NCBI RefSeq assembly: GCF_003053565.1
Contig: NZ_QAXS01000022.1
Span: forward strand, 1 to 54,288
Origin: Halanaerobium saccharolyticum
GTDB lineage: Bacteria; Bacillota; Halanaerobiia; Halanaerobiales; Halanaerobiaceae
Reading direction: 5' to 3'
DNA: 54,288 bases
Under the pieces are notes generated by a model that searched no databases, had not been told where the DNA came from, and saw only the letters and a list, made by a program, of their open reading frames with translations. The translations under genes and the position numbers were made by a program. Shown here one piece after another: positions 21,159-47,044 of this stretch; positions within the stretch are counted from its first letter, which is position 1, and the number at the start of each line of letters is the position of its first letter.

Positions 21159-21168
21159 ATATATTCAC

Positions 21169-24084
21169 CTATACACCTTCATTTTTTAATGCTTCTCTTA
21201 ATAACTTGGCATATTTAGCTTCTTCATGCCAGTGTTCCATATGATCTACCATTTCTATTTTAGAAATAAACGTTAGTATTTCCCGCATTAAAGGTTTTTT
21301 ATACCAGTAATCCTGGCTTTGATTAAATACTCCTTTAAGATAGGTTCTACCGGAGTTTGTAGAATCATTTTTAGCTGATTCTAAAATTGCAACCAGCAAG
21401 TGTCTTAACAATGAGCCGTTAAAGTCTTTTTCATTAAATTCATTCTCAAGATAACTTGTTTTATATTCTGAAGGAGTTTTAAGTCTGACATTATTGGCTT
21501 CAAAGTTGTGAAACATTGTTTTATATTCTTTAACTCCAAATCCTTTTGCCAACTCCTGATAAGCTCCTATTGTATGCTCATTATTCATCTCAAGTTCTAA
21601 ACCTCTAATAAAGAATCGTTCAGCATTAGATAACTCAAACCAGTGATTTTTTTCAAATTCTTCTGGAATAAGGTAGCTGTTAGCTACATCACGAGCTTTT
21701 TTAATTAATTTTTCAACTGGACTTTCCTCATTTCTATCACCGGAAAGCCAATAATCAATATCTATACCATCAATTTCTCCATAACCCGTTAATACCTTCA
21801 GTGCGGCTGCATAAGATGCTAACAGATAATCAGCATCAGTAAAATCAGGAATATCTTTATAGTCAATACCTTTCATTGAATCAATCATTTTTTTAACTTC
21901 CATCTGGATTTCATCATATACTTCATCCTGAAAAGCAAAATCATCAGAACTTTGTTTTTGAAGAACTAATAATACAGTTCCTTTAACATAATTGCCTTCT
22001 TTTAATCCCCCAGAGTTAGTTTCAGTCGATATATTCCAAGCTGAAGCAACTTTTAATCCAGCTGACCATAAAATCATAGTAAGTTCTGACCAAACTTTTA
22101 CATCTTGATGAGTAAACATTACAATCTGATAGCCATTATCAGGCATGTTATCAGCTAAATTTTTGTAAATTTCAACCATGCTCTCATTAAAAGATTGGCC
22201 TGTCCCTTTTACAGCTAATACTCTTTTTGAATCTGTATACCATTCTGGGAATATATCTTTTAAAAAGTTTTGATCTAAAGACAAAAAGAACTCTGATAAT
22301 TCATGATAATTAACAGCATCTGCATAAGGGGGATCTGTAAACCAAACATCTTGGTTTTTATTAATTTGTCTAGCATCAATTGGACAAACTTTACTTTTGT
22401 TTTTAAAATCATAATTGTTAATATTATAAAACCAACTATTACTTAAAAGAAATAAGCTTCTAGTTCCATAATTAAATAATGTATTTAAAGATTGGTTTGA
22501 AAAAGTATTTTTTACTATTTCACACCCCTTATAACTATCCCACATACTTAATTTAGAATTCCAGTCTAAACATTTGTTTCCACCAAGTAATTGAATTACT
22601 TTTTCTTTTTTTGTTTGAGAAAATTTATCAGAATACTTCATTAGCAAACCATTTGTTAATAACTGCCTAGGATTAAATAATTGATGCCAGTACTCCCAAC
22701 CTTTTTCTCTCATAATTTGATCAGTGTTATAACCTTTTTCTATTCTGCCAGAAGGTATATATCCGTTTTTTTGCCATTCATTAAATCTTTCTGATAATAA
22801 ATCAATAACTTTTTCTTCTTGTTTTAACTCATGTTGAGTTGGGGAAGAATAATATCTATTTCCATTCCCATCTATATATTTTATTGCATATAATCTCTCT
22901 TTGTAAACATCTTCATCTCCATATTGAAACTTATTTTTCCCCCAGGTGTTCAAACCAAAAATAGTACCATCTTTTGTTTTTTTATCATTTCTAATGCTTG
23001 TAATAGGGGTCTTAGTTTCACAATGAGGACAATAAATTTTATTATTGTCAATGGTAGATGATTTTTTAGATTTTTCTCTTTGATTTTTGTTAGCATTTTG
23101 AATAATATTTATAAAAAATCTTTCATTTATATTGTCTTCCCTTAATATAGCAACAGTTTTTGTGCCTTTTCCTATAATCCAAGATGGAGCTAATGGAACT
23201 GTATAACCACACTCTGGACATTCTACTTCATTGCAATAAAGATAAGAATCAGCACGATGTCCTTTTTCATTGTGCTCAATTCCCCATTCACTTATTTGTT
23301 TATTAGCTTCTTTATAGACTTTTTCTTGAAATTCTTTTAATTCATTAATTTGTTCATCAGAAGCACCAGCAACATTTAACGAAGCCCATGTTAAAAGTGC
23401 AGCAATTGGATTTAAATCAGACCCAAAAGCTTCAGCCCCCATTCTTGCTGCTTCAAATGGAATTGAACCCCCACCAGAAAAGCAGTCACCAACTTTAGGA
23501 ATATGATTAAACTTTTTCTTCCCTAACTCTTGAATTAACTCTTGTAAATCTGTTGCATTAGTTTTTAAATGTTCATTAATAATTTCCCATTCTTTTTCAT
23601 CAGTCAATTCGACTTCTTCAGGTCTTTTACAGTATCTTAATTTATCATCATAAGATAATCTATTAAAAGCTATTTTCTGTAGTTCTTCTTTCATCTCCTT
23701 CTTGTTCTCTCTTGACATACCTTTAGGATATTTAGGCTTTTTAGCAGTTGAACCCTCTCGAAAATATTGTTCTTTTTCTTCTTCAGTAGTAAGCTGCCAT
23801 AATTTCTTTTTAGAAATATTTTTATACTTTCTTAACCACAAACCTTCTTCATCCATAGTCATAATTTTAAGGAATATTTCTCTATCTTTATTGTAATTAT
23901 TTGAAACTGGTAATAAGGTCCCTAATAAAGCTGCCCTAACCATAACCAGTGGTTTTCGACCCCACCATTTACCTAACCCAGTAAGTGTTTGCCCTAGATT
24001 AGCTTTTCTTTCTTTATAACTTTCCTTAGATATTCTTGAAACTGGAAATTGAACTTCAATAAATGATTTATTATAATCTAACAA
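21169..24084 (-). CDS. DUF1156 domain DNA methyltransferase
   Basis: This 971-residue predicted adenine-specific DNA methyltransferase carries an N-terminal DUF1156 segment (about 5-55, with KWWGRKPLVMVRAALLG). The SAM-binding loop is CFSGGGSIPFEAARMGAE (about 202), and the catalytic motif is FTDPPYADAVNYHEL (about 585). Two CxxC pairs, ECPECGY (about 288) and YCPHC (about 354), form the family's zinc ribbon. In the defence module it would mark self DNA. It lies just downstream of DUF3780, with a 42-base gap. Length and motifs are complete, with no damage seen. Confidence 0.9.
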   Translation of the reverse strand: MLDYNKSFIEVQFPVSRISKESYKERKANLGQTLTGLGKWWGRKPLVMVRAALLGTLLPVSNNYNKDREIFLKIMTMDEEGLWLRKYKNISKKKLWQLTTEEEKEQYFREGSTAKKPKYPKGMSRENKKEMKEELQKIAFNRLSYDDKLRYCKRPEEVELTDEKEWEIINEHLKTNATDLQELIQELGKKKFNHIPKVGDCFSGGGSIPFEAARMGAEAFGSDLNPIAALLTWASLNVAGASDEQINELKEFQEKVYKEANKQISEWGIEHNEKGHRADSYLYCNEVECPECGYTVPLAPSWIIGKGTKTVAILREDNINERFFINIIQNANKNQREKSKKSSTIDNNKIYCPHCETKTPITSIRNDKKTKDGTIFGLNTWGKNKFQYGDEDVYKERLYAIKYIDGNGNRYYSSPTQHELKQEEKVIDLLSERFNEWQKNGYIPSGRIEKGYNTDQIMREKGWEYWHQLFNPRQLLTNGLLMKYSDKFSQTKKEKVIQLLGGNKCLDWNSKLSMWDSYKGCEIVKNTFSNQSLNTLFNYGTRSLFLLSNSWFYNINNYDFKNKSKVCPIDARQINKNQDVWFTDPPYADAVNYHELSEFFLSLDQNFLKDIFPEWYTDSKRVLAVKGTGQSFNESMVEIYKNLADNMPDNGYQIVMFTHQDVKVWSELTMILWSAGLKVASAWNISTETNSGGLKEGNYVKGTVLLVLQKQSSDDFAFQDEVYDEIQMEVKKMIDSMKGIDYKDIPDFTDADYLLASYAAALKVLTGYGEIDGIDIDYWLSGDRNEESPVEKLIKKARDVANSYLIPEEFEKNHWFELSNAERFFIRGLELEMNNEHTIGAYQELAKGFGVKEYKTMFHNFEANNVRLKTPSEYKTSYLENEFNEKDFNGSLLRHLLVAILESAKNDSTNSGRTYLKGVFNQSQDYWYKKPLMREILTFISKIEMVDHMEHWHEEAKYAKLLREALKNEGV

Positions 24085-24126
24085 AATAATCCTCCTCTAA
24101 ATTTCTTGAGATTTATCTAGTTTATC

Positions 24127-24663
24127 TTAAAATAATCGCTGTACAAAGCTGCCTGCTAATTTATTATCTACAGGGTTTTCTGTTAGTGCATATCTTAAAG
24201 CTATTCTCCAGCCACGGTTGTCACTGTAATGACCCGTTGAAGCATTAGTCATTGTAAAAAGCCACCATCTCTCTTCAGGTGATAAACCCAGCCAGTTTTT
24301 GATGGCTAAATCAATAACCCCTACTTCAGCATTTTCTATAGCCCAAAGCAGAAGCATTAATTCTTTACCATATAAACGCTCTAAAGGTACATAATAACTG
24401 TCAAAATCTCCTGCTGGAAGTCCTTCATCTTTTAAACGCCTATTAAATTCTTTTTTGATTACATTTTTAACTTTATTCCATTTGGTCTTACTTAAAATCA
24501 CTTTTTTATCTTTATCATTTAAATCACTAACCTGCTCATCTTGATCCCAGTTAAATCTCTCATATACTGTTATTTTAGCATTTCCAGTTGGTATTTCTAA
24601 GAGGAAATGATGATTGGTTTCTTTTGGATTAAAACCAAATCCATAGGTTTTTACTTGGCTCAA
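24127..24663 (-). CDS. DUF3780 family protein
   Basis: This 178-residue protein of the DUF3780 family is a small partner found almost exclusively beside DUF499 and DUF1156 genes. Recognisable stretches are YGFGFNPKETNHHFLLEIP near the start, VPLERLYGKELMLLLWAIE in the middle and LSPEERWWLFTMTNASTG near the end. Biochemical function is unknown. It lies 12 bases after the DUF499 gene and is clearly in the same operon. The start ATG at 24663 has a GGAGATGA-type site. Confidence 0.8.
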   Translation of the reverse strand: MSQVKTYGFGFNPKETNHHFLLEIPTGNAKITVYERFNWDQDEQVSDLNDKDKKVILSKTKWNKVKNVIKKEFNRRLKDEGLPAGDFDSYYVPLERLYGKELMLLLWAIENAEVGVIDLAIKNWLGLSPEERWWLFTMTNASTGHYSDNRGWRIALRYALTENPVDNKLAGSFVQRLF

Positions 24664-24675
24664 AAGATCATCTCC

Positions 24676-27600
24676 TTAATATTGACTAAATCTATTTTTA
24701 TACATTTCTAGGTTGAATTCATTTTTTTCAAGCCATCTTAAAAAATCTCTGCCGCTTTTGAATTTTATCCCTGTAATATTAGCAGTTAAATCATGGGGCT
24801 TTTCTCCAACAAAATTATCTTTAATATTTTTTAGTTGTTCTTCTAACATATTCATATCATCTATTTCTACTTTATCTATCATAAAAGTCAAAGAAAAATC
24901 AGCTTTACCTCTACCTGTGATAATAAATTGTGCCTGTTTAAAAGTCGCATTTGTTTCATTTAAAAATTCAAGCTCCTCATATGTCGCTTTTGTTCCTTTT
25001 GGAGTTTGAGCTTCTGTTAATTTGACAGGCTTATCGCTATCAACTGTAACTTCATTTTCTTTAACTTCATACTGCAGCACATCAGATACTATATCATGTT
25101 CTTCATTTACTGCAACTGCCTGAATGTATTTTGCATTTTCAGGTATAATAATTGGTTCCTGATAAACGCCTCCATTTTCTTTTGGAGAAGAACCATCCGT
25201 AGTATATCTGATTTCACAATTACTTGGTGTTGCCTGCAGTTTTAGTGCATCTTTCCCTTTAATTGTTAACTCTTTATACTGCAGATTTATATCATTCTCC
25301 CATTTTACAGGATCTCCAGTTTCATTAACACCTTCTGAATCAACTGCTAAAAAGTAGTAGACTAAATCAGTTGCTTCAAACGAGTTATAGTTTTCTACTT
25401 TTTTGGAAGCCGTAGTCGGCTCTTGACCTATCTCATAATAAACTTCATCTGCATTAACTGGAGTAATGCGCAGTGTAGAAATACCACTTTCACTTACAGT
25501 GCTCATTTTTGTAACATTAACATTAGTTTCTTTTTTTGGAGGAGTTTTATCAATATAATTACCGTCTTTAAACCAGATTTCTTTCTGCAGTGAATCTTCC
25601 TTTAGTTCCCCAAGAGCATCCGGTTTATGCCACAGCCACCTTGTTTCAGTAGCAGTTCTTTCAATTAATTCATTCCAAGTCATTCTATCTCTTGTGAAGA
25701 TAATTTTATCAAATCGTTTCCGTAATTTCTTTGGTTCAATATCTGTAGTAAACTTCATTTCACTGATTAAAGTGTTTTTAATTTCTTTTTCAGCATTAAA
25801 GTTGTTTTGAGAAAACTTCATAATTAAATTAGTATTTTTTAATACATTATTTCTGGGATAATACAAAGTCGTAAAAGTCTCTCTTAAACTGGAATTCAAC
25901 CTGTTGCCAGTTTTATCTTTTAAATCCATAGCCTGCTGCATTTCACTGTCTCTGTCGCTGACATTATCGGCCTGCATTCTAAAAATTATATTATTAATTG
26001 CTCTAACTTTTTTGGCGGTTTCTAAAAGCTTATTCATAACATTTTTTTGACCTGTTAAAAACATAACTCGATTTTTATATTCTACTTCTTCAAAAAACTG
26101 CTTTAATTCACTTTTTAGGCCATCACTGCCCTCACTAGGTTCAGAAATTATTAAAGAAACTTTTTCTTTAGAGAGTTCAATTTCTTCAATTGAAGGGAAG
26201 ACCATTAAGTTTTGATAGCAATCTTTATCATTAGGTTCAAACTCCTCTTCGAGTAAGTCTTTAATATATAATTTAGCCTGACTGCGGCTTAGATTTTTTA
26301 TTTCATCCTGCATTTCTGCAACTACATTTTTAGTCTGTCTAAAGAGCAGTTTGTTATGATGTTTATATAAATACCAGGCTTTTTCCTGCAGTTCTTCAAT
26401 ACCGCTTCTGATTTTTGTGATATCTCTATTTGGAGCAACAAGATAAGTAAAGATCTCACTCACTGATAGACCCACTATTGCCTCTGTAGCTTTTGATAAA
26501 GAAGACATTAAGATAAGTTTTGAAACATCCTGAACATCCTGAGAATCTGTAGATTTATCGATTCTCTCTGCAACAGAGTGGCCGTTATTGGCAATATCAT
26601 GGCTTATGGCATTTGTAAACTCTGGTTTAATTGATTTAATTTCATTAGCCATTTCAGCATTATTTAAATCAATATCATAAGGATTAATTAGATATAGATT
26701 ATCAGCTTTGTCTGACTCTCTAAAAATACCTTTAAGCATCTTCTTAGTCAACCTGATAACACCACGAGTTTTTTGGAAACCCTGGTTTTCCTTAAATCTT
26801 TCGACTAAATCTTTAAAAGAAGGGTGGAAGGGATATGTATCTCTAACTGCTGAAGCAATTTCACTAGGCGCCTCATCTGTATAACCCATTTCTACAGCTT
26901 CTTTGACGCTGTTTTTAAAGCCATTAGCTACTTTATTGATTTCAGATTCATCTGGTAATCCTTCAAACATTCTAGTTTTCAAAATATCATAAAGATCATT
27001 ACTGTTGCTTGATACAGGTTCTAGATTTAAAGAAAAACGATTTATTTCTCCATCGAGTTCTTTAAACATACCCTGAATTATTTCTGATTCTTCCTCATAT
27101 GTAGCTTCAAGATCAGATATAACTAAGCAGACATTAGATAATTCTTTTTTATTTATAGCATTTAATAAATTTGCGATTGCTGTTGTTTCAATATCTAAAA
27201 GTGTACCCTGACCATAAGTTCTAGTCTTAGCATTATTTAAATATGGCGGCAGCTCATCTAATAATATAAGAGTAGGTGTAGAACTTTCCAGCAGGTTAAT
27301 CCAGGCAGTTTGACCCGGCGCCTGAAGTGGAGAATAATATTCACTAAACTGTTCTTTTTTTCCCAGCTGTTTGGCAATTTCTCCCCAGGTGCCATAATTC
27401 ATATCAGATTCTCTACCTGTAACAGATATTGTTCTAATCTCACCTTCTACATCATTATATTTGCCTTCAAGAATTTCTTTTCTCAATTTAGGATATTTAG
27501 CTAATAATCCCAGAGCAATCATGTTGTGAGTTTTACCTCCACCCATGGCCTGGGTTAGTTTAATAATGCTGTTTCCTGATCTGTTTCTAAATTTATTCAT

Positions 27601-27768
27601 TGCGGTATCAAAAACTGTTTCCATGTTGTCGGTGATAAATGTTTCTTTAAAAAATCTTTCAGGATCAATGTTACCATTTTTCAAGTCTGAAAGATCTAAG
27701 ACCTCATCTTTCATTGTTCTATCGAAGACACTTTTTCTAACCTTAACTGAATTAGCAAGAGTTTTCAT
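24676..27768 (-). CDS. DUF499 family AAA ATPase
   Basis: This 1030-residue ATPase of the DUF499 type is related to the large P-loop proteins of BREX/Pgl systems. Visible are Walker A TQAMGGGKTHNMIALG (about 73), Walker B TLILLDELPPYL (about 166), and two C-terminal beta-rich segments (about 735-880) that look like a chitobiase-type or fibronectin-like fold (EIRYTTDGSSPKENGG). The last 100 residues are helical. It heads the DUF499-DUF3780-DUF1156-helicase operon. The gap to Gabija upstream is 95 bases, so it may have its own promoter there. Confidence 0.85.
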   Translation of the reverse strand: MKTLANSVKVRKSVFDRTMKDEVLDLSDLKNGNIDPERFFKETFITDNMETVFDTAMNKFRNRSGNSIIKLTQAMGGGKTHNMIALGLLAKYPKLRKEILEGKYNDVEGEIRTISVTGRESDMNYGTWGEIAKQLGKKEQFSEYYSPLQAPGQTAWINLLESSTPTLILLDELPPYLNNAKTRTYGQGTLLDIETTAIANLLNAINKKELSNVCLVISDLEATYEEESEIIQGMFKELDGEINRFSLNLEPVSSNSNDLYDILKTRMFEGLPDESEINKVANGFKNSVKEAVEMGYTDEAPSEIASAVRDTYPFHPSFKDLVERFKENQGFQKTRGVIRLTKKMLKGIFRESDKADNLYLINPYDIDLNNAEMANEIKSIKPEFTNAISHDIANNGHSVAERIDKSTDSQDVQDVSKLILMSSLSKATEAIVGLSVSEIFTYLVAPNRDITKIRSGIEELQEKAWYLYKHHNKLLFRQTKNVVAEMQDEIKNLSRSQAKLYIKDLLEEEFEPNDKDCYQNLMVFPSIEEIELSKEKVSLIISEPSEGSDGLKSELKQFFEEVEYKNRVMFLTGQKNVMNKLLETAKKVRAINNIIFRMQADNVSDRDSEMQQAMDLKDKTGNRLNSSLRETFTTLYYPRNNVLKNTNLIMKFSQNNFNAEKEIKNTLISEMKFTTDIEPKKLRKRFDKIIFTRDRMTWNELIERTATETRWLWHKPDALGELKEDSLQKEIWFKDGNYIDKTPPKKETNVNVTKMSTVSESGISTLRITPVNADEVYYEIGQEPTTASKKVENYNSFEATDLVYYFLAVDSEGVNETGDPVKWENDINLQYKELTIKGKDALKLQATPSNCEIRYTTDGSSPKENGGVYQEPIIIPENAKYIQAVAVNEEHDIVSDVLQYEVKENEVTVDSDKPVKLTEAQTPKGTKATYEELEFLNETNATFKQAQFIITGRGKADFSLTFMIDKVEIDDMNMLEEQLKNIKDNFVGEKPHDLTANITGIKFKSGRDFLRWLEKNEFNLEMYKNRFSQY

Positions 27769-31666: not shown

Positions 31667-34486
31667 TTATCCCATTTCTTGATCCATTTCTTTCATCAAT
31701 TCTCCCTGAATAGGGTTATTAGGTACAATAATGTTTTTGGCTAATCTTTTCTTTTCCTCTAAAAGACGGTGCAGCTTTTCTTCAACTGTTTCTCTATCTG
31801 CAGTCATAATCGGATAATAGACATTAACTTCCTTTTCTTGGCCGATTCTATAGACACGATCAGTGGCCTGCTGTTCTACAGCTGGGTTCCACCAGCGGGT
31901 ATAATGAATAACATGATTTGCTCCGGTAATATTTAAGCCGGTTCCAGCCGCTCTTGGAGATAATATCATACAGCCAAAGCCTTCACTTTCATTAAACCTA
32001 TCCACTGAAGCTAAACGCTGTTTTGAATCACCATTAATTATTGGAATCTCCTGCAGTCCAAATTTTTCCCGAATTACTCTCTGCAAGATAAGCTGCATAA
32101 TTTTAAAAGTAGTAAAAATTAGAGCTTTTTCGTTATTTTTTTCTACTTCTCTTAATATATTAATAACAGATTTCAGCTTTGGACCCTCATTTAATAATTC
32201 TTCTGCGCTTTTTAGATTCCAATCCTTATCCAAAAGAGCTGGATGAGAAGATAACTGTAGTAAAGACTGCAGTGTCCCTAAATGAGTTCTACCCTTAGAA
32301 TTTTTTTCTTTTTCTATTATTTCTTTATATCTTTCTTTTTGTCTCTGGCTCATTTCAATTGTTTTGGTAATATCTTTTTTCTCAGGCAGTTCATCTTTAA
32401 GCTCACCCTCTTTTGTCCTTCTCAAAAATACAGGTTGAATTTTTTCCTTCAGCATAGCTTCATATTTTTCATATTCTTCTGGAGTATTTGAATTCTCAAT
32501 TGGTTTCACAAAATTATTTTTAAATTCTTTAAAACTGTCTAAAAGACCAGGTTGGGCAAAATCATAAATAGACCAGAGATCTGCAACAGTATTTTGAACA
32601 GGTGTGCCGGATAAACCCAACCTCAGCTTTGCCTTTTGAGCTTTAACAGCATGAGCTTTTAAAGTGCTTTGATTCCTAATAGCCTGAACTTCATCACAGA
32701 CTAATATGGTCCAATCTATTTCTCCCAACAGAACCTGATCACTAACTAAAGTGCTGTAGGTAGTTAAAACTACATCAGACTGCTTAATAACTCTGCTATT
32801 TTTATTACGAGAACCACCTAAGTGGATATATACTTTGTTGATTTCTGGTGAAAATTTCTTTATTTCATGCTGCCAGTTTTCTAATAGAGATTTAGGGGCA
32901 GCTATTAAGGAGGGAGACAATTTATTGTCTGCTTTTAAGCTGGCCATCAAAGCAATAACCTGTATTGTTTTTCCTAAACCCATGTCATCAGCTAATAAAC
33001 CACCTAATTTTGAATCTTTTAATTTATGCAACCAAACATATCCTCTTTTTTGGTAGGGTCTTAATTCACCCTTAAATAAGCTTGGTGATTGATAAATAAC
33101 ACCATCTTCCTGCAGCTTACTTCTAAAATCTATCATCTGCTCATTATATTCAAGCAGATCAATATTTTCATAAATGTCAAAAATATAATTAAGATTTTCT
33201 TTATTTACTTTACCATTGGTCTTGATTTTATCTACTTCTTTTGCTCCTTCTATAAAATCTTCACTTTCTTTAGGAATTTTAACCCAGTTATCATTATAAA
33301 GCACATAGTCTTCACCCTTTTCTCTAGCTTCTTTTACCAGCCTTTCAAATTCACTGAGCTCAATTTGTTCCTCATCAGCTTCATCACTTTCATTTTTAAT
33401 ATTAACTCCAACATCGATATCAAACCAGTCAATCTGATCAGTTTTGGAAGAACTAACATATGGCTGAGCTTTGTAAACTCTTTCTTTAAGTCCTTTTACT
33501 CTTTCACTAAACTTTTCTAAATCTATGTTATCTGGTAGATACTTCATAGGATTTTCAATAAAGTCAGGCACCTGGGATCCTGTTAATTCTCTATTTGCTG
33601 ATGCCTGTTTATAACTTTCTTTACTTTCAGGCCCAATAAAGACTCTTTGGTTTTTGCCGCCAGTTTTATTAACTGTATAATTATCATTATTATTTATTGC
33701 TTTTTCAGCATCTTGATTTAACTGATCATCCAAATCATTAAATTTAGGGTTGAGTTTTAAATAATCAATAGATTCTAATTCAATATCTATATCTAAATCT
33801 TCAGGAAAGAAATATTCTTCTCCCTCTAAATATGGGTTGAATTTAATATTTAATTTTTTTGCTTTAGATTTAACCTTAGCAAAATATTCAAATTGCTCTT
33901 CTCTTTCCTCTGGAGGATTATCTATTAAATCAAGGACTTCAGTTAGTTTTTTATTTAAAACATAAGCCTGATTATCATTTAAAGGAAAAAATGGGCCAGC
34001 TCTTTGATAAAACTTACTTATATACCCTTCCTGCTCAGCTTTGATTATATATTTTAATTTGAAATTACTGCTGCCGATAACACCACTGTTATCTATAGTA
34101 ATTTCTAAGTCTTCATCAGGTTTAAGTCCGAGCAGTTCATTTAATTTTCTGTTACCTTCTCCCAAACTCTCTTCATCTTCGGCAGAATTTTGATACTGAT
34201 ATATTGTATCAATATGCAGAAAATAACTTCCATCACCTTTTTCTATTAATTCCTCACTGTGCCAGGTACCTTCAAGAATCTGCAGAGAAAGATAAAAATC
34301 TTTATTGATTAAATTTCTTAAATCAAAATATTTGCCATAAGTAATTGGAAAACTTAGCTTCTCTCTTTGCCCATTATCAATTTTGTTAATTTCAAACTCA
34401 ATTCCATTTTCTAAAAGAGTCCGCTTTATTTCTATCTCAGGCTCTGATTTATTTGTTTTGAAGTTATTTTTAAAGAAGTTGAACAT
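31667..34486 (-). CDS. zorD: Zorya protein ZorD, SNF2-type helicase
   Basis: The N-terminal 450 residues are family-specific and unassigned. They are followed by a SNF2 core: LRPYQKRGYVWLHKL (about 470), Walker A LADDMGLGKTIQV (about 498), motif II as CDEVQ rather than DEAH (about 596), LGLSGTPVQNTVADLWSIY (about 620), and motif VI VEQQATDRVYRIGQ (about 870). In type I Zorya, ZorD is the helicase that acts with ZorC on invading DNA after the ZorAB motor senses infection. The gene lies 2 bases after zorC. Length is 939 residues, within range. Confidence 0.9.
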   Translation of the reverse strand: MFNFFKNNFKTNKSEPEIEIKRTLLENGIEFEINKIDNGQREKLSFPITYGKYFDLRNLINKDFYLSLQILEGTWHSEELIEKGDGSYFLHIDTIYQYQNSAEDEESLGEGNRKLNELLGLKPDEDLEITIDNSGVIGSSNFKLKYIIKAEQEGYISKFYQRAGPFFPLNDNQAYVLNKKLTEVLDLIDNPPEEREEQFEYFAKVKSKAKKLNIKFNPYLEGEEYFFPEDLDIDIELESIDYLKLNPKFNDLDDQLNQDAEKAINNNDNYTVNKTGGKNQRVFIGPESKESYKQASANRELTGSQVPDFIENPMKYLPDNIDLEKFSERVKGLKERVYKAQPYVSSSKTDQIDWFDIDVGVNIKNESDEADEEQIELSEFERLVKEAREKGEDYVLYNDNWVKIPKESEDFIEGAKEVDKIKTNGKVNKENLNYIFDIYENIDLLEYNEQMIDFRSKLQEDGVIYQSPSLFKGELRPYQKRGYVWLHKLKDSKLGGLLADDMGLGKTIQVIALMASLKADNKLSPSLIAAPKSLLENWQHEIKKFSPEINKVYIHLGGSRNKNSRVIKQSDVVLTTYSTLVSDQVLLGEIDWTILVCDEVQAIRNQSTLKAHAVKAQKAKLRLGLSGTPVQNTVADLWSIYDFAQPGLLDSFKEFKNNFVKPIENSNTPEEYEKYEAMLKEKIQPVFLRRTKEGELKDELPEKKDITKTIEMSQRQKERYKEIIEKEKNSKGRTHLGTLQSLLQLSSHPALLDKDWNLKSAEELLNEGPKLKSVINILREVEKNNEKALIFTTFKIMQLILQRVIREKFGLQEIPIINGDSKQRLASVDRFNESEGFGCMILSPRAAGTGLNITGANHVIHYTRWWNPAVEQQATDRVYRIGQEKEVNVYYPIMTADRETVEEKLHRLLEEKKRLAKNIIVPNNPIQGELMKEMDQEMG

Positions 34487-34488
34487 AT

Positions 34489-35685
34489 TTATCTCCTTCC
34501 AGCTCTAAGTTCTTTAATCATTTTATCTGCTTTATGCTGCCAGCTGCTCATATGATTAACTTTATATACATTTTTATTTCCCATATTTCTTGCTTCATAG
34601 GTATATTTTAATGAATTATTATTTACAGCATTGTGTTTATTCATATATTGTGCCAAATTTTGTTCAAAGAAATCTTTTTTATAAAAATAAACTGCATTAC
34701 CTAAATCACCAAATTCAACAACCACAAAATTATCAAAAGTTAAAAATAACTGCAGATATTTTTTAACATAATCTACCTTTTCCATAATATCAACCTGTTT
34801 TTCCCAATAAGAAAATCTTTTCTGAGCTTCTTCTTGGTCAGTAGTTATGCTGTCAAAAAACTCTTTTAGTTTTTTATAGTTAAACCAAGCTGCAGCCTTT
34901 TCTTTAGCCTTTTTATCAATCTCATTCCAAGCAGTGCTGTAATCTTCTCTTGGATCACCCAAACGATCTTTAATTATATACATCAGCTCTTCTTCATATT
35001 CCTTATCTTTAAAAACAAATAGATAATTTTCAACCACTGCTTTTAGATTTTTGATTTCTAATTCTTTAAAAACTTTGATTAAATTGTTCTTATCTTCTCT
35101 AAGAAAGACCGGCTTAGTACCTTTACTAAGTAAATCTGCTGCTAATCTTTTAGAAATTTTATTCTCAAATATTAAATCTAGCTTGTCTAAAAAATAAAAT
35201 AAAGTAATTTTATTGTTTTCAATATACTTTCTCATATTAATTAGAGGTGAAGAATCTTTAAATATAGTATCTAAAACTTTTTCCTGATCATTTAATTTAG
35301 AAAATGAAGCTAATAAATTACCAAGCAAACTGCTTAAATCTTTATTTGTATAATCCTCAGCAAAATTATTCCACAAAATCTTAATTATAAATTTATCTTT
35401 TTTATGTAATATGATATTATTTATTTTTTTATACAACTCATGAGGAATATTGCTATATTTAATTGCTAAGGCAATTATTTCTTCAGTTTTTAATGAATCT
35501 GCTAAATATATTATTTTATCTAGACTAAATTCTCTTATTTTCTTTAATAACTCCTCTAAGTCTACTTCTTTTGCTTTTTGAGATTTAATTTTATAAATGT
35601 CTGCTTTGGTGGGGAATGTTTTTTTGATTTTATTTTTCACTGCAATTAATTTAGATGGCTGAAAAGAAAAGCTATTAAATTTCAT
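34489..35685 (-). CDS. zorC: Zorya protein ZorC (EH_signature domain)
   Basis: The C-terminal part carries the EH_signature pattern: VVVEFGDLGNAVYFYKKDFF near 312, then VYKVNHMSSWQHKADKMIKE near the end. The rest is helical. I chose the ATG at 35685, encoding MKFNSFSFQ. It lies just after the zorB stop with GGGAG nine bases before it. The longer reading from 35718 would overlap zorB by 29 bases. The product is then 398 residues. ZorC is a type I Zorya DNA-binding component; the gene is followed by zorD after 2 bases. Confidence 0.88.
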   Translation of the reverse strand: MKFNSFSFQPSKLIAVKNKIKKTFPTKADIYKIKSQKAKEVDLEELLKKIREFSLDKIIYLADSLKTEEIIALAIKYSNIPHELYKKINNIILHKKDKFIIKILWNNFAEDYTNKDLSSLLGNLLASFSKLNDQEKVLDTIFKDSSPLINMRKYIENNKITLFYFLDKLDLIFENKISKRLAADLLSKGTKPVFLREDKNNLIKVFKELEIKNLKAVVENYLFVFKDKEYEEELMYIIKDRLGDPREDYSTAWNEIDKKAKEKAAAWFNYKKLKEFFDSITTDQEEAQKRFSYWEKQVDIMEKVDYVKKYLQLFLTFDNFVVVEFGDLGNAVYFYKKDFFEQNLAQYMNKHNAVNNNSLKYTYEARNMGNKNVYKVNHMSSWQHKADKMIKELRAGRR

Positions 35686-35689
35686 ACGA

Positions 35690-36457
35690 TCATTCTCCCA
35701 ATGTATTTTTAATATCATTTATCATTTCAGTATCTTTAAGTCTAAATTTAAATTCTACCCTGCGAGATTTTTCTCTATTAATTTCTCCATTTTTATTTTT
35801 AATTGGCTGACTATATGAACGACCATTAGCAGTTAGATAATCTCTTAATCTATTCTTATATTTAAAATCAGTAAAACTTTCATCATAAATTTGAGTAACA
35901 ACTTCAAACGCTCTATTTTGTGATAATTCTAAATTATACATATAGCTGCCCACATCGTCAGTGTGACCCTCAATAATAATCTGAGCTACATATTCTTTAA
36001 AATCAGGACCCAATAATATTTCAACATATTGAGGAATAAAGCTTTCTAAAAATTTAATACCCTCGTCTGTTATCTCAGTGCTGTCTGTATTAAAAAACAC
36101 TCCGCCCGGCAGGCGAATAGCTCCTGTTTGAGAATCAATCTCTAAACTTAAATCTGTATCAGCAAATTTCTGCTGTAAAGCAATAATTATTTCTTCTCTA
36201 ACTCCTAACAATTTATCTATCTCTTTTGTTTTTGTTTCTATTTCATTTTTTTGCTTTTCAATTTTCTCTTCTTGTGCAGTAGCCTTAATTTCAGCTTCTA
36301 CTGCTGCCTGTTCTGCACTTCTTGCATCTAACATAATTACAGATAACAGCAGAATAAACATTAATAAAAGAGCAGCCATAATATCAGCATAAGAAATCCA
36401 AAAATTGGCCTTTTCTTCTTGACTATCAATCTTACTTTCACGAAAAAAATTAAACAC
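35690..36457 (-). CDS. zorB: Zorya protein ZorB, MotB/OmpA-like stator subunit
   Basis: A single membrane helix FWISYADIMAALLLMFILLL (about 19-38) holds the conserved aspartate (Asp25) that takes the proton in MotB-type stators. A coiled coil follows (about 50-90). The OmpA-like peptidoglycan-binding domain comes next, with IIEGHTDDVGSYMYNLELSQ (about 161) and REKSRRVEFKFRL near the end. At 255 residues the length fits ZorB. The start codon overlaps the last base of zorA, so the two are translationally coupled as expected for an A5B2-type complex. Confidence 0.92.
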   Translation of the reverse strand: MFNFFRESKIDSQEEKANFWISYADIMAALLLMFILLLSVIMLDARSAEQAAVEAEIKATAQEEKIEKQKNEIETKTKEIDKLLGVREEIIIALQQKFADTDLSLEIDSQTGAIRLPGGVFFNTDSTEITDEGIKFLESFIPQYVEILLGPDFKEYVAQIIIEGHTDDVGSYMYNLELSQNRAFEVVTQIYDESFTDFKYKNRLRDYLTANGRSYSQPIKNKNGEINREKSRRVEFKFRLKDTEMINDIKNTLGE

Positions 36458-38394
36458 TAATTATCCCCCCTCAGCCGAGAGAAAAAACTAGATTTATCTT
36501 CGTTCTCTTCCATTTTATCTCTTATATAATTTAATTGATCAATAATTTCTTTTTGTTTTTCTCTTTCTTCTTTTAATTCAGCACTAATTGGTGTAATATT
36601 ATTTTCAACTTCTTTTTTAACATCATTTTTTAAATTTTTATTATTTTCTTCTAAAATTGTTTCAATTTTTTTATTTTCTTCCTGGACAGCCTTAGATATA
36701 TCTGTCAGTTTATCACCTAAAAGCGATTCTTGTTTATCTAAAACATCCAATATTTCCTTTCGATCAATTTTAAATTCATCTAAAAGATTTTTTAATTGAT
36801 TAAATGAGTTTGGAATATCTTCTAAAGAATTATTAACCTCAGTAATTGTAACTGCTAATCTATCGGATATTTCACTTAAATTTTCATCAAAGCTGGTAAA
36901 GGTTCTTTCAAGACTTTCATGAGTACTATCTGCAAATTGTTCAATCGCTCCATTAAAGTTATTATTAAGTTCTGTAAAACTGGACTGCACATTATCCCAG
37001 TATTTCTCTATATTATCTAACTGTATTTCCATTTCGTCAATATGTGAATTTTTCTTCTGATCAAATTTCTCCTGCTGCTCAATTAAGATTTCTAATTTAT
37101 CATTAGTTTTTTCTTCTAAGCCGCTAAGTTTCTCCCCCAGTGTATTTAACTGTTTTATATTATGATTTAAATTAGCATTTAAATCATCAAACTGCTTCAC
37201 ATACTGCTGAACATTATTTAATAACTTCTCGGTATAATCAAGCATATCATTTTGCTTAACTGCTCCCTGCTCTAAAGTAGAGATCAAACTTTCCATTTCT
37301 TTTTTACTTTCTTTCTGCCAGCGGATCATATCTTCTAAAGTAACTCTTAAGGCAGTAAATTGATTATCAAAACTCTCATTAAATGTTTTCATAAATTTAT
37401 CAACCATTTTATCTATACTTTCACTCTGTTTATCAATTGATAAATCAGCTAAATTATCCATAATATTATGCATTTCTTCAATTTGAGGTGCAATACTTTC
37501 AGAAACAATTTTTTCTACACCTTCAATCATATCCTTTTGGTTTTCTTTAGAAGCTTCAACAAAATTATTTAGATTATTATCAATACTGTTCATAGAAGGT
37601 TTTAAACTTTGATCAACTGCTTCTTTAACTCCGTTAACTAATTCTGGAATAAGAGTATCAGTATAAAATTCTTGAGTAGCCCTCAGCTGTTTTTCCTGGT
37701 TTTCTACAATATTATCTATGAGATTACTCTCAATTCTAATTGGCAAATATTTTCTCAATGTATTGTTTAATCTATTAATTTCTTTTTCAGTAATATTATT
37801 ATATTTTTTATTCCAATAGTTATAAATTATAGAACAAAAAATTGCAACTAAGGAAGAAATAAATGAAATCTGCATTGAACTTATTAATGGTGGAATGCTA
37901 TTTCTAATATTCTCAGCATTTGCAATATTTAAATTCCATAAACCAATAATTAAACCAAAAAAAGTACCCAAAATACCTATTGCAGTTAATGTACTTGGTA
38001 TATTATCAGACACTTTTTTATTAAGAAAATTTGAAAATATACTATTTTGATTTATGTAATGTTCTGGATCAATAATGTTCTTATTATTGTTATTTTTAAT
38101 CATAATAATATAATCTTCTAATATATCGTTTATGATAAAATTATTTTTTCCAATTAAGGACTCAATTTCTAAAATATTATTTAAAGAATTATTATCTAAT
38201 TTCTTATCCAGCGTAGTTCTTAATTTAAAAATATTATTTTTTAAGTTTTTAGTTGGAAGTATATTTTTATACCACTGATAAATTGTAAATCCAATTGTAA
38301 ATAAAACAAAAATAATAACTATTAGCCAATTAATAGATAATCCAATTGTTATTGATATTTCATTAATTAGTTGATTTAAATTAATTATAACCAC
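36457..38394 (-). CDS. zorA: Zorya protein ZorA, MotA/TolQ-like channel with long tail
   Basis: Three membrane helices are visible: about residues 19-38 (NWLIVIIFVLFTIGFTIYQW), 136-152 with the TolQ-like GILGTFFGLIIGL, and 173-192. The remaining 440 residues are a long coiled-coil tail, typical of ZorA. The start is doubtful. The GTG at 38394 lies inside the AGGTGG sequence that looks like the ribosome-binding site, so a non-standard ATA or ATT a few codons downstream may be used instead. A promoter lies just upstream at 38407-38436. It heads the whole minus-strand defence block. Confidence 0.9.
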   Translation of the reverse strand: MVIINLNQLINEISITIGLSINWLIVIIFVLFTIGFTIYQWYKNILPTKNLKNNIFKLRTTLDKKLDNNSLNNILEIESLIGKNNFIINDILEDYIIMIKNNNNKNIIDPEHYINQNSIFSNFLNKKVSDNIPSTLTAIGILGTFFGLIIGLWNLNIANAENIRNSIPPLISSMQISFISSLVAIFCSIIYNYWNKKYNNITEKEINRLNNTLRKYLPIRIESNLIDNIVENQEKQLRATQEFYTDTLIPELVNGVKEAVDQSLKPSMNSIDNNLNNFVEASKENQKDMIEGVEKIVSESIAPQIEEMHNIMDNLADLSIDKQSESIDKMVDKFMKTFNESFDNQFTALRVTLEDMIRWQKESKKEMESLISTLEQGAVKQNDMLDYTEKLLNNVQQYVKQFDDLNANLNHNIKQLNTLGEKLSGLEEKTNDKLEILIEQQEKFDQKKNSHIDEMEIQLDNIEKYWDNVQSSFTELNNNFNGAIEQFADSTHESLERTFTSFDENLSEISDRLAVTITEVNNSLEDIPNSFNQLKNLLDEFKIDRKEILDVLDKQESLLGDKLTDISKAVQEENKKIETILEENNKNLKNDVKKEVENNITPISAELKEEREKQKEIIDQLNYIRDKMEENEDKSSFFSRLRGDN

Positions 38395-41910: not shown

Positions 41911-42591
41911 ATGAAATTAGAAAATGCAATACAAGTTTTAGAACCAATAACAAATAAACCATTTAAAGATTTTTTAACTGATGAACAAATGAAAGGTATA
42001 AGAATTAATAAAGGTTTAACAGGACAGTTATTGGAATTACAATTAGGTTTAGAAAATTCTTCGCGCAATCTTGATTTTGAAGATGGTGAATTAAAATCAA
42101 ATAAAGTAGATATTGATGGTAAACCACTTGAAACTATGTACATAAAACAAATATCAAGTATGATTGATGATTTGCTTTCCGAAAAAAATTTTTTTGAGAC
42201 TAAGCTATATAAAAAAATAAATAATATACTTCATGTTCCCGTGTATAAAGGTTCAAGAAAAAATAAAGTAAATAGAAAAGAATGGAGACTACTTCCATAT
42301 ATACATATAAAACTATCAGAACATCCTCAACTTAAAAAACAACTCGAAGAAGATTATTATAATATTTGTAAATTAATGAAAAAACAATTAGATAAAAGTC
42401 AAAACTCATATCTCCACACTTGTAATGGTAAGTATATTCAAATTAGAACAAAAGATAGTAAACCATATAATGCTATTTATTCAAATGTCTATAATAGGAT
42501 TGTATCTGATAAAAACAGGGCTTTTTATTTCAAAAAAGAATTTATCAAAAAAATTCAAGAGTTTTCTTCTAGTTATCCTATTCAGTTATAA
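41911..42591 (+). CDS. MutH/Sau3AI-family type II restriction endonuclease
   Basis: The N-terminal half matches the MutH fold: INKGLTGQLLELQLGLE, then NLDFEDGELKSN with the catalytic Asp...Glu-x-Lys, then DIDGKPLETMYIKQIS. At 226 residues it is like MutH and smaller than Sau3AI (about 490). Family members cut or nick at GATC. The start ATG has AAAGGAG before it. It is divergent from the beta-class methylase, and its 3' end overlaps the end of the Dam-like methylase gene by 10 bases. The nuclease call is good; the specificity is inferred. Confidence 0.75.
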   Translation: MKLENAIQVLEPITNKPFKDFLTDEQMKGIRINKGLTGQLLELQLGLENSSRNLDFEDGELKSNKVDIDGKPLETMYIKQISSMIDDLLSEKNFFETKLYKKINNILHVPVYKGSRKNKVNRKEWRLLPYIHIKLSEHPQLKKQLEEDYYNICKLMKKQLDKSQNSYLHTCNGKYIQIRTKDSKPYNAIYSNVYNRIVSDKNRAFYFKKEFIKKIQEFSSSYPIQL

Positions 42592-43502
42592 TTCTTAATA
42601 ACTAGTTCAGTAATTTCTCCTCTTTTAGCAGCATTAGAATTAATTGATCTCTTGGCTGATACTTCTGAAATATCAAATTCAGAATATAATTCTTCAAAAA
42701 AATCATCTTTGGAGTCTGTATTTTTGGGATTAGAATTGCTAAGCATTAAAAAGGCCTCTTCACTAATTTTTTCTGCCCAATCAGCTAATCTCTTTTGACT
42801 TTCTTCATTGAAGTCTGCTCTAGCATATTTAGTAAAGCTTTTAGTTCCTGGTAACGGTCTATATGGGGGATCAATATAAATAAATGTCTGATCCTCTATA
42901 TATTTTTCTGTTTTTTCAAAATCACCAGAAGTTAAAATAACGTTTTCTAATGCTTTACTAACTGCTATTAAGTTTTCTTCATTACAAATAGTCGGGTTTT
43001 TATAACGTCCAATTGGAACATTAAATTCTCCACTCTGATTTTGTCTATAAAGACCATTAAAACAAGTTCTATTTAAGAATATAAATTTAGCTGCATGCTC
43101 GATATGAGCTTTAGTAAATTGATTAAAATTAAGTTCTTTTTTTTCATCATTAAAATTATCTCTTCTTGCATAATAAATTTCTTTTCTATTTTCAGTCTCT
43201 AAAGGTAAGTATTCTTCTTCCATTTCCTTTAACCGTTCAATAACTGCATCTACTTCATTTTTTACAGATTTATAGGTATTTATCAATTCATGATTTGCAT
43301 CGTTTAATACTATCTTTTCAAAATTATAGTGTTTTGTTAATTCAAAAAATACTGCACCTCCACCTACAAAAGGCTCAATATATGTTTTAATCTCATTATT
43401 TTTTAAAGTCAATGGATACTCTAATTCAAACTGCCCAAGTAGTTGTCTTTTACCTCCAGCCCACTTTAAAAATGGTTTTGCTTCAATTTCAGTAGCTAAC
43501 AT
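42582..43502 (-). CDS. Dam-like (D12 class) DNA adenine methyltransferase
   Basis: This alpha-class adenine methylase of 306 residues begins KPFLKWAGGKRQLLGQ (motif X), has EPFVGGGAVFFEL (motif I, about 43) and the catalytic FIYIDPPYRPLPGT (about 207). Members of this branch mainly methylate GATC, as DpnM and Dam do. The gene is divergent from the Xre-type controller. A perfect palindrome lies over its likely -10 box (TATAGT on the minus strand). It is predicted to protect host DNA from the neighbouring nucleases. Confidence 0.9.
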   Translation of the reverse strand: MLATEIEAKPFLKWAGGKRQLLGQFELEYPLTLKNNEIKTYIEPFVGGGAVFFELTKHYNFEKIVLNDANHELINTYKSVKNEVDAVIERLKEMEEEYLPLETENRKEIYYARRDNFNDEKKELNFNQFTKAHIEHAAKFIFLNRTCFNGLYRQNQSGEFNVPIGRYKNPTICNEENLIAVSKALENVILTSGDFEKTEKYIEDQTFIYIDPPYRPLPGTKSFTKYARADFNEESQKRLADWAEKISEEAFLMLSNSNPKNTDSKDDFFEELYSEFDISEVSAKRSINSNAAKRGEITELVIKNYN

Positions 43503-43863: not shown

Positions 43864-44781
43864 CTATCTTAATACCTCTTCTAAAGCTCCTTCTGCAATC
43901 AATTTTGTTGTAAACAGATAATCAATTTTATCAAAAGTTTCTCGTAATGGTCGTTTTGCTGTTTTCCAACCTTTACCATCAGTGATCCAAATAAAAGCTT
44001 CTACGTTATTCTTAGGTTTTAAGAGATTATTTAAAGAAATATATTCTCCAGCTACTGACTTCAATTTTGAACCACCAGAAGTATAAAAATTAGTTTCAAT
44101 TAAAACAACTTTATTTCCTTTTTTTATTGCAAAATCATATCTTCTAGAACTTTTATCAACTGGTGTTTCTATATTCCACTTTCTTAAAATTTTCTTTTTG
44201 CTGGCCTGCTCAAGATATTCTAATCCTAATTTATTACATTCTTTTTCTATTTACCATTTTGTGATTTTCTCCATTAAAAAACCACTTCTGTTTTTCCTGC
44301 CATTAGTACCAATTCCAACTTCTAAGCCTATCATATAATCTACAATATTTTTAATCTGCTTATTTTTTAATAATTTTAAAAGTCCAATACCATCACAAAA
44401 TTCTATTATATCTTCGATCTCTTTTTCTGTATAGCTACTCTTTTTTCTAAAACTATATTTTTTATATTTCCAGTCATCTCCACGATAATCAACCAAAACT
44501 TCTACACTTTTCTTTCTAATTGCAACAAGTATTGGGATTACATTTACTACTGATGGATGTTTTTTTATTAATTCTTTAAATTCTGTTTTAATATCTTCTT
44601 TCCCAATTAAATAATTTAACAAATTTAATTCCATTTCGATATTTTTAACTTTATGAAATATCTTTGACCAATCAATAAAATAGTCAAAAGTTCGATTTGA
44701 ATGCCGTAGATTTTTAATTATGTAATTAAATATTTGATCTTCATTAGCTCCTAACTCAGAATAGCAATTTAAATAGTTCAA
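43864..44781 (-). pseudogene. DpnII-family restriction endonuclease with one in-frame stop
   Basis: Two minus-strand frames belong to one gene. The N-terminal part from the TTG at 44781 (GAGGGAGG before it) runs through GLEVGIGTNGRKNRSGFLME, a DpnII hallmark. It ends at a TAA at 44251-44253. Reading on in the same frame gives YDFAIKKGNKVVLIETNFYT, then SGGSKLKSVAGEYISL and WITDGKGWKTA, the rest of the DpnII fold. No other lesion was seen. The full frame is 306 codons including the stop, close to DpnII (about 290 residues). It faces the controller gene tail to tail, with no gap. Confidence 0.8.
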
Positions 44782-44971
44782 TTTATTTCCTCCCTCACTA
44801 AATTTTAATAACTTATAGAAATAAAAAATACTCATTGGAATACATAAAAAATAATTGTTATTTACTAATATTAATATTCTTTGAAAACAACTTAAAACCT
44901 TCTTTTAAGGTAATTTTATATATTATAAATCAGGCCGCTGACACGATTATGTAGCAAACTAATGTATTTCG

Positions 44972-45008: not shown

Positions 45009-45377
45009 TTAGTATTTTATATTTCTATTAATTTCTTCTCTTTTCTTCTTGGCTGCCTCTCTCATATTTCTAAAATAAATACCTGCTCCACCGATTTCAG
45101 CCGTCATCTGCCCATCAATAATATAATCAATTTTATCTTTTATTTCTTTTATTGAATTATTAAGTTCCTCAGGTTTTAGATTATAGAGCTCATTCTTAAT
45201 ACTTTTTATATCAGACTTTAATTCCTCAACAGGCGGCTTAACTAAAAATTTCTTCCCATTTAATAATTTAACTACTGTCATTTCAAACTCAATTAATTTC
45301 ATTTCAATTTCAAAAGTATCCAGTTCCTTATATTTCTTTTCCAATTCAGCAATATCTTTCTGCAGTTCTAATAACAT
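45009..45377 (-). CDS. hypothetical protein with coiled coil, 122 aa
   Basis: I do not recognise the family. Residues 1-90 are charged and helical, probably coiled-coil. A short Gly-rich segment GQMTAEIGGAGIYF follows (about 92), and a basic tail comes last. The ATG at 45377 has GGGAGATGATT before it. It lies 55 bases after the small Cys-containing gene and before a terminator, so it may share the SAM-I riboswitch control. A small AT hairpin (about 45391-45410) lies in the gap. Confidence 0.5.
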   Translation of the reverse strand: MLLELQKDIAELEKKYKELDTFEIEMKLIEFEMTVVKLLNGKKFLVKPPVEELKSDIKSIKNELYNLKPEELNNSIKEIKDKIDYIIDGQMTAEIGGAGIYFRNMREAAKKKREEINRNIKY

Positions 45378-45432
45378 TTAATCATCTCCCAATATTATTT
45401 TTTAATATTAGAGAGATGGACCCGGCTGAAAG

Positions 45433-45735
45433 TTATCCTAGATGCTCAGTCTTAATTTCTTCAATCTCTTCCTGCAGCATTTGATCAATTTTTGTGCTGT
45501 AATTATCTCTTTTCTGTTTAACTATATTTTCAAGATTTTGGTGCCACTCTTCTTCTGCATGAGGACATTTAAAACGATCAAATCTTGTTTTCTTTTTGGC
45601 CATTGCTGAGCCAAAATCTTTATAGTCTAAAACATTTCTTTTTACCTCACATTTGCTGTCACAGACATTACAGTACATTTCTTCTTTTTCACCTGGAGCT
45701 TTATTAAAAACTGTCAGGCCAGTAGTATAAGTCAT
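45433..45735 (-). CDS. small Cys-containing protein under a SAM-I riboswitch
   Basis: This 100-residue protein has a MYCNVCDSKCEVKRNV cluster near residue 20 and a later FKCPHAEEEWH (about 56). The three to four cysteines and a histidine could bind zinc or another metal. The C-terminus is helical. I recall similar short proteins in Clostridia without a known function. The ATG has a strong AAAGGAGG. It lies directly behind a complete SAM-I riboswitch and terminator, so it should be made when SAM is low. That links it to sulphur or methionine metabolism by inference only. Confidence 0.6.
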   Translation of the reverse strand: MTYTTGLTVFNKAPGEKEEMYCNVCDSKCEVKRNVLDYKDFGSAMAKKKTRFDRFKCPHAEEEWHQNLENIVKQKRDNYSTKIDQMLQEEIEEIKTEHLG

Positions 45736-45761
45736 AGTAAAAACCTCCTTTTTTAGACATT

Positions 45762-45789
45762 AAAAAAACTCTTCTCAATAAGAGAAGAG
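45762..45789 (-). terminator. riboswitch expression-platform terminator
   Basis: A perfect 8-bp stem, CTCTTCTC/GAGAAGAG, with a 5-base loop is followed on the minus strand by seven Ts. It lies between the SAM-I aptamer and the Cys-containing gene. Confidence 0.85.
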
Positions 45790-45913
45790 CTTATAAATAA
45801 TCATCAGCTTCTTTCTTATCTTTCAGCACAACTGCTGCGGAAATTAGCACCTTCCCTGACGGGGGTTGCTGGGTTTCACCGGGTCCGTTCCCTCCACCAC
45901 TCTTAATAAGAGT
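45790..45913 (-). promoter_or_regulatory. SAM-I (S-box) riboswitch
   Basis: Read on the minus strand, the aptamer begins CTCTTATTAAGAGTGGTGG. It continues GGAGGGAACGGACCCGGTG, AAACCCAGCAACCCCC, then AAGGTGCTAATTTCCGC, and closes with GAAAGATAAG pairing back to CTTAT. These are the conserved S-box segments in order. With the downstream terminator it forms a transcriptional OFF switch when SAM is bound. Confidence 0.92.
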
Positions 45914-45971: not shown

Positions 45972-46295
45972 TTAACCAGCTTTATTATCAATTATTTTAT
46001 TAAATTCAATTTTTATTATACTTTCTTGATTAGGATTTAAATTGATATTAGCATCTAAAACCTTAGCTAATTTAAGGAGTGTACTTAATTTAGGCAGAAC
46101 TTCTTCTGACTCCAGCCTGGCAATCGCCGACTGCTTTAATCCAGATTTTTTAGCCAGATCTGTTTGAGTCATGTTTTGATCAAGTCTTAATCTTATTAAA
46201 TCAGCTGAAATTTTAGATATTAAAATATGACGCTCATACTCTTCTTCTGACATAGACGACTTTACTATTTGATCAAATTCATCCAAATTGTTCAT
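45972..46295 (-). CDS. Xre-family transcriptional regulator (HigA-like), solo
   Basis: At 107 residues, the helix-turn-helix is LDQNMTQTDLAKKSGLKQSA, followed by IARLESEEVLPKLSTLLKLA. The N-terminal extension (about 1-30) and the pattern resemble antitoxins of the HigA type. No RelE/HigB-like toxin gene lies on either side, so it is a solo regulator or an orphan antitoxin. The ATG has AGGGGG before it, and a long inverted repeat with TATAAT on both strands lies 40 bases upstream. Confidence 0.75.
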   Translation of the reverse strand: MNNLDEFDQIVKSSMSEEEYERHILISKISADLIRLRLDQNMTQTDLAKKSGLKQSAIARLESEEVLPKLSTLLKLAKVLDANINLNPNQESIIKIEFNKIIDNKAG

Positions 46296-46960: not shown

Positions 46961-47044
46961 GGATTATTGAGGGTAGAACAGGCATCTACCGCACCTGAAT
47001 TCAGGTATAAAGAGATGTGGGTACGCCGTCCCAACAATAATTCC
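46961..47044. other. unclassified structured element
   Basis: The ends GGATTATTG and CAATAATTCC pair. Inside are a 6-bp hairpin GGTAGA/TCTACC (46972-46990), a 14-base perfect palindrome ACCTGAATTCAGGT (46993-47006) and a 3' GC-rich segment. On the minus strand it would lie in the leader of the HIT gene. Local GC is well above the surroundings. I cannot match it to a riboswitch or RNA family. The rest of the 46799-47088 gap holds nothing I recognise. Confidence 0.4.

Follow-up and report, generated by a model that had tools for sequence, protein, structure and literature searches.

A SAM-I OFF switch that probably controls a two-gene accessory module on mobile elements, a prophage and defence islands

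SAM-I riboswitches (S-boxes) are textbook controls of methionine metabolism. The same clan includes the SAM-IV and SAM-I/IV variants, which have the same SAM-binding core and other peripheral pseudoknots, while the trans-acting SAM riboswitches SreA and SreB of Listeria provide a precedent for roles beyond methionine genes. Here we describe a SAM-I element on a contig of Halanaerobium saccharolyticum (NZ_QAXS01000022.1, positions 1 to 54,288, forward strand; the whole 54,288-nucleotide stretch is hereafter called the window). It departs from the methionine leaders in its pseudoknot and in the genes that it heads. A first-pass annotation had reported a complete aptamer and terminator in front of a small Cys-rich protein and proposed a possible new member of the sulphur or methionine regulon. 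We consider it probable that this SAM-I OFF switch controls a two-gene accessory module that is carried on mobile elements and in defence islands, with one copy on a prophage; this judgement covers the regulation and the mobile module, and a function in defence is graded separately below.

The riboswitch in the window and its parts

With cmscan, positions 45912-45813 (minus strand) matched SAM-I (RF00162) along the whole model (positions 1-108) at 81.0 bits, where the gathering score is 44.4 (E 1.4e-17). The match is far beyond chance expectation, and comparison across the riboswitch clan returned RF00162 as the best match. The Infernal search proposed in the first-pass annotation thus bore out its complete aptamer. 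The terminator, an 11-pair stem, lies at 45792-45766 (minus strand), and the order that it had described, a 100-aa Cys protein followed by a coiled-coil protein, holds in description and coordinates. Aptamer, terminator and a competing antiterminator span 45766-45912 (minus strand), directly 5' of the gene for a presumed zinc-binding protein (hereafter Zn protein). The parts of the locus are:

45972..46295, minus strand: XRE-family regulator gene, upstream context (HTH_3, 5.8e-14), syntenic in two relatives (G009 and G006)
45813..45912, minus strand: SAM-I (S-box) aptamer (RF00162, 81.0 bits, full length)
45884..45887, minus strand: pseudoknot half in the P2 loop, CGGA, pairing with UCCG at 45838-45841
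45838..45841, minus strand: pseudoknot half in J3/4, UCCG, pairing with CGGA at 45884-45887
45776..45821, minus strand: predicted antiterminator, P1 3' strand with the terminator 5' arm (-12.5 kcal/mol)
45766..45792, minus strand: intrinsic terminator, 11-pair stem and U-rich tail (-14.4 kcal/mol)
45744..45749, minus strand: Shine-Dalgarno AGGAGG of the Zn-protein gene, read from the sequence
45433..45735, minus strand: operon gene 1, ORF for the 100-aa CxxC...C...WH, presumed zinc-binding protein
45009..45377, minus strand: operon gene 2, ORF for a 122-aa coiled-coil protein with homologues in five other genomes

The GCAACC adenines, GGUGC and AAGAG, which we take to be the letters touching SAM in the solved aptamer, are all present in the window aptamer and occupy invariant or nearly invariant columns among 20 aptamers. 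Two mutually exclusive structures, P1 with the terminator and the antiterminator, are predicted in all nine members of the variant lineage described below, and this layout is the usual SAM-I OFF design. When SAM is ample, the aptamer would close P1, the terminator would form and transcription would stop; when SAM is low, the P1 3' strand would pair with the terminator 5' arm and RNA polymerase would read through, yielding the Zn protein and the coiled-coil protein. Because the aptamer belongs to the SAM-I family, we infer that SAM switches the operon off.

The H. saccharolyticum genome carries four SAM-I elements, the window copy included. By eye, the ORF translations place the other three at the heads of metY-metA (first gene O-acetylhomoserine sulfhydrylase-like, together with metA), metF-metH and metNIQ (transporter type). 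The classical met regulon is present in this genome and the fourth SAM-I target is its outlier.

The intergenic spacer at 45378-45432 (minus strand) carries TTTCAGCCGGGTCC, whose complement lies in the P2 region of the riboswitch (pairing energy -34.7 kcal/mol). The pairing is strong relative to shuffled sequences, but 69 of 8950 random windows equalled it and it is not claimed here.

The variant lineage and its linkage to two genes

An order-wide survey, with the metagenomic contig L032 added, sorted SAM-I elements into 9 of the variant type, 72 of the UGG type and 5 unclassified. The nine variant riboswitches are a lineage of their own. The window aptamer is 92-98% identical to the copies in G009, G022 and G021 and 65-73% identical to the three met riboswitches of its own genome; among the variant aptamers of the window genome (G000), G009, G022 and G021, pairwise identity is 90-98%. 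The pseudoknot between the P2 loop and J3/4 reads CGGA/UCCG in the variant lineage and CUGG/CCAG or CCUG in met riboswitches, with G010 (CAGA/UCUG) and G005 (CGGA/UUCG) as exceptions within the lineage. Across 20 aptamers, two of the four pairs are altered on both sides and 92% of pseudoknot cells are paired, a count given without formal probability since the rows are kin. In these alignments the variant pseudoknot is maintained through compensatory change, which argues that the tertiary fold is under selection.

The Zn protein was found in 5 of the 38 genomes of the order, SAM-I in 36. A homologue 83-85% identical lies directly behind a SAM-I element in a sister Halanaerobium (G009), as does one of 44% identity in a member of another Halanaerobiales family (G022). 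On L032, from IMG/VR, SAM-I is followed by a homologue of 32-35% identity, and we regard this contig as prophage because tail, endolysin-like and holin-like ORFs were read on it by eye. The riboswitch of G021 precedes a Zn gene missing its 5' half. In G006 the riboswitch heads the coiled-coil gene and a remnant of the deleted Zn gene is visible, while in G018 and G010 it heads the coiled-coil gene and the Zn gene is absent. In H. kushneri (G005) the riboswitch ends contig C50 pointing outward and the gene starts contig C16, with compatible orientations; an insertion or assembly gap likely lies between the two, and the reading that the riboswitch had been lost in this species was dropped.

A profile of the coiled-coil protein matched six genomes, namely the window genome, G009, G006, G018, G010 and G005. 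The gene lies behind a variant riboswitch in the first five, the G018 match covering only 35 residues before its contig ends; in G005 it directly follows the Zn gene, on the contig separated from its riboswitch. The riboswitch has a second target in the coiled-coil gene, which goes beyond what the first-pass annotation had claimed, and the module comprises the riboswitch with the Zn gene, the coiled-coil gene or both. Since either gene can be lost, the two proteins need not act as a pair. The Zn gene gave dN/dS values of about 0.32-0.41 in comparisons with its two closest homologues, the coiled-coil gene 0.14-0.33, and such purifying selection indicates that both genes are translated and kept. 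In G009 and H. kushneri (L007/L020 and L011) the gene after the coiled-coil gene is Rpn/PD-(D/E)XK transposase-like as read by eye; in the window a DpnII cluster takes its place.

Searches of 398 genomes of the phylum yielded no additional convincing Zn homologue, and a plasmid search gave no match. Three pattern matches (L027-L029) proved not to be riboswitches. Five virus records, between 12 and 595 kb long, carry Zn homologues. For four viral homologues (L012, L017, L018 and L033), whose records measure 219, 318 and 595 kb and, for a fragment, 12.6 kb, no riboswitch lay in the part of the sequence examined; SAM control is therefore no inherent property of the Zn protein. The 318-kb viral contig (L017) also bears a bacterial RNase P RNA (class A, 146 bits) at 2771-3040 (plus strand) and several tRNAs.

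The first-pass annotation had asked whether homologues elsewhere also follow S-boxes or lie near methionine genes, and would otherwise have regarded the riboswitch as displaced. They do follow S-boxes, in G009, G022 and L032 and as the truncated copy in G021; the Zn gene is therefore a SAM-I-regulated gene and the riboswitch is not displaced. It is very improbable that the switch is a passenger, functionally unlinked to the gene downstream: although it survives the deletion of the Zn gene in G006 and the truncation in G021, different families have conserved the pairing of switch and gene, which corresponds one-to-one to a distinct riboswitch lineage, and both pseudoknot and terminator are maintained. 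The proposed membership of methionine or sulphur metabolism, on the other hand, found no support for either protein. Neighbours were not met or cysteine genes in any locus seen, and the family libraries searched placed the Zn protein in no family of the methionine, cysteine or SAM pathways. The module probably lies outside methionine metabolism.

The Zn protein and the genomic surroundings of the module

In an alignment of eight members, F10, P14, C22, C25, R33, D53, F55, C57, W64, H65 and S80 of the Zn protein are invariant. Among these, C22, C25, C57 and H65 are candidate metal ligands, invariant in the aligned members but with C22F in H. kushneri, whose copy is 87% identical to that of the window. 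This residue pattern suggests that the protein may bind zinc. An AlphaFold model from six sequences (pLDDT 87, pTM 0.71) was used in place of a poor one from four (pLDDT 71). Pfam, NCBIfam, PHROGs and PDB sequences returned nothing significant on family identity, comparison of the model with PDB folds gave no significant match, and VIA-align reached Z scores of 6.4 and below that covered the C-terminal helices alone. Structurally, it came closest to uncharacterised proteins of giant viruses (E 4e-7 and 1.4e-5): Harvfovirus A0A3G5A110 and Edafosvirus A0A3G4ZVV5 have a similar predicted fold (query-normalised TM 0.77 and 0.73) at only about 20% identity. In PADLOC-DB 2.0 neither the Zn protein (L020 and L021 copies) nor the coiled-coil protein (L020 copy) had a match; only neighbours did. 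The module is real, conserved and unexplained by known families.

These data bear on two other accounts of the Zn protein. It could be an unrecognised factor of methionine or sulphur metabolism or of zinc economy, perhaps assisting zinc-dependent methionine synthesis or thiol metabolism, whose location in variable regions is incidental. SAM-I control is classically metabolic and the conserved Cys/His pattern suits a metal site, yet the protein is scattered through the order compared with SAM-I itself, is missing from most relatives bearing met S-boxes, lacks methionine or cysteine neighbours and has relatives on large virus contigs as well as on a prophage; we consider this account quite unlikely. 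Somewhat less doubtful is descent from a small phage or giant-virus protein, a host-takeover or virion factor, domesticated after prophage carriage and silenced in well-fed cells by a riboswitch captured from a met gene. The homologues on virus records, the giant-virus proteins as best structural matches and the prophage copy on L032 are what one would expect from such an origin, but three Halanaerobium species conserve the sequence at chromosomal loci, and the linked coiled-coil gene is left unexplained.

The reading that we prefer to either account is that of a probably SAM-controlled accessory module, whose neighbours are defence or mobile-element genes. In the window, 6086-44835 is a dense defence island by Pfam and PADLOC-DB 2.0 matches, and a DpnII R-M cluster adjoins the riboswitch module. 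Within the island we found:

6086-10939: DruE-like helicase
18477-27768: DUF1156 methylase/DUF499/DUF3780/PLD-helicase set
31667-38394: Zorya-like genes

Defence-type genes also occur near most other copies of the module. A BrxC/PglY-like gene (DUF6079) is found about 3.5 kb from the module in G009, a type IV-like helicase with BREX-like genes in G006, a defence-type helicase in G005, WYL regulators with AbiE in G022, a type IV-like enzyme directly upstream in G021, and a DNA methylase with an McrB-like ATPase directly upstream on L032. An McrB-McrC reading of the L032 genes was abandoned: Pfam backs the AAA_5 (McrB-like) ATPase only and leaves the 415-aa partner unnamed. In G010 and G018 the neighbours, read by eye, are resolvase, primase-like and integrase genes, with no clear defence genes. 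The loci of the window genome, G009, G005 and G006 are one by descent, leaving only about four independent defence contexts. For a baseline, eight regions of 12 kb were drawn at random from a single genome (G009) and the 77 ORFs taken from them were searched at a cut-off of 1e-30; these gave no R-M, BREX or Abi match, and the seven matching families were Cas12-like (probably TnpB), GlgB-like and dCTPase models. Counting the four Halanaerobium loci as one, defence context was seen at 4 of 4 Zn loci against 0 of 8 baseline regions, which is suggestive only, the criterion having been picked post hoc and the baseline drawn from one genome.

Several other features of the window were recorded in passing. 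The Pfam DpnII endonuclease match is split over ORFs 43864-44064 and 44251-44835 (profile 2-154 and 218-277); the restriction gene looks interrupted, while its D12 methylase at 42582-43502 is intact. Between the DruE-like helicase and an McrB-like ATPase, 10940-15040 encodes a 1366-aa protein with no PADLOC match. A Skipping-rope RNA (RF02924, 66 bits), of an orphan RNA class, sits at 46962-47042 (plus strand) between a HIT-family gene and an XRE/ImmA-IrrE gene.

Possible role and comparison with known systems

The distribution of the module suggests that a shortage of SAM may serve bacteria and a prophage as a signal for purposes other than methionine metabolism. The module would act on SAM depletion, whether the cell is starved of methionine or a phage SAM lyase is at work; a gene expressed only at low SAM should respond to both. 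Phage SAM lyases are a counter-defence against R-M systems; by degrading SAM they raise the methionine regulon of E. coli (PMC7877911). The BREX type I methyltransferase is reported to use SAM as cofactor and to be required for defence (PMC11842806). As the likeliest function we tentatively suggest, with more doubt than conviction, that the module may modulate or reinforce those defences in which DNA modification requires SAM. A more detailed version, which we hold rather unlikely as it stands, is a trip-wire placed in defence islands and a prophage: once starvation or a phage, perhaps one with a SAM lyase, has drained SAM, R-M and BREX-type modification would fail and the riboswitch would induce the two proteins, which would restrain self-restriction or serve as a second line of defence.

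The class of riboswitch is an established one; new, as far as checked, are its target module, the mobile lineage and the compensated pseudoknot. A literature search, within the papers open to it, turned up no work that links SAM riboswitches to phage defence. A distinct SAM-I lineage accompanies a gene pair on mobile and defence loci, a prophage included. If confirmed, riboswitch sensing would extend to the accessory genome, and the methyl donor of R-M and BREX would be tied to the expression of a nearby gene.

Set beside described systems, the window switch shares with the RF00162 met leaders the aptamer fold, the conserved core and a transcription-terminating OFF architecture, but differs in its CGGA/UCCG pseudoknot and in targets that are not methionine, cysteine or SAM genes. 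Unlike SAM-IV and SAM-I/IV, it keeps P4 and the SAM-I layout, with RF00162 as its best match in the clan. Unlike Listeria SreA and SreB, it has no convincing trans target, the complementarity found being merely in the top 1% of random windows. Phage SAM lyase of the T3 type (SAMase), together with SAM-dependent R-M and BREX, would supply a low-SAM signal in a defence context, a tie to these loci that is hypothetical.
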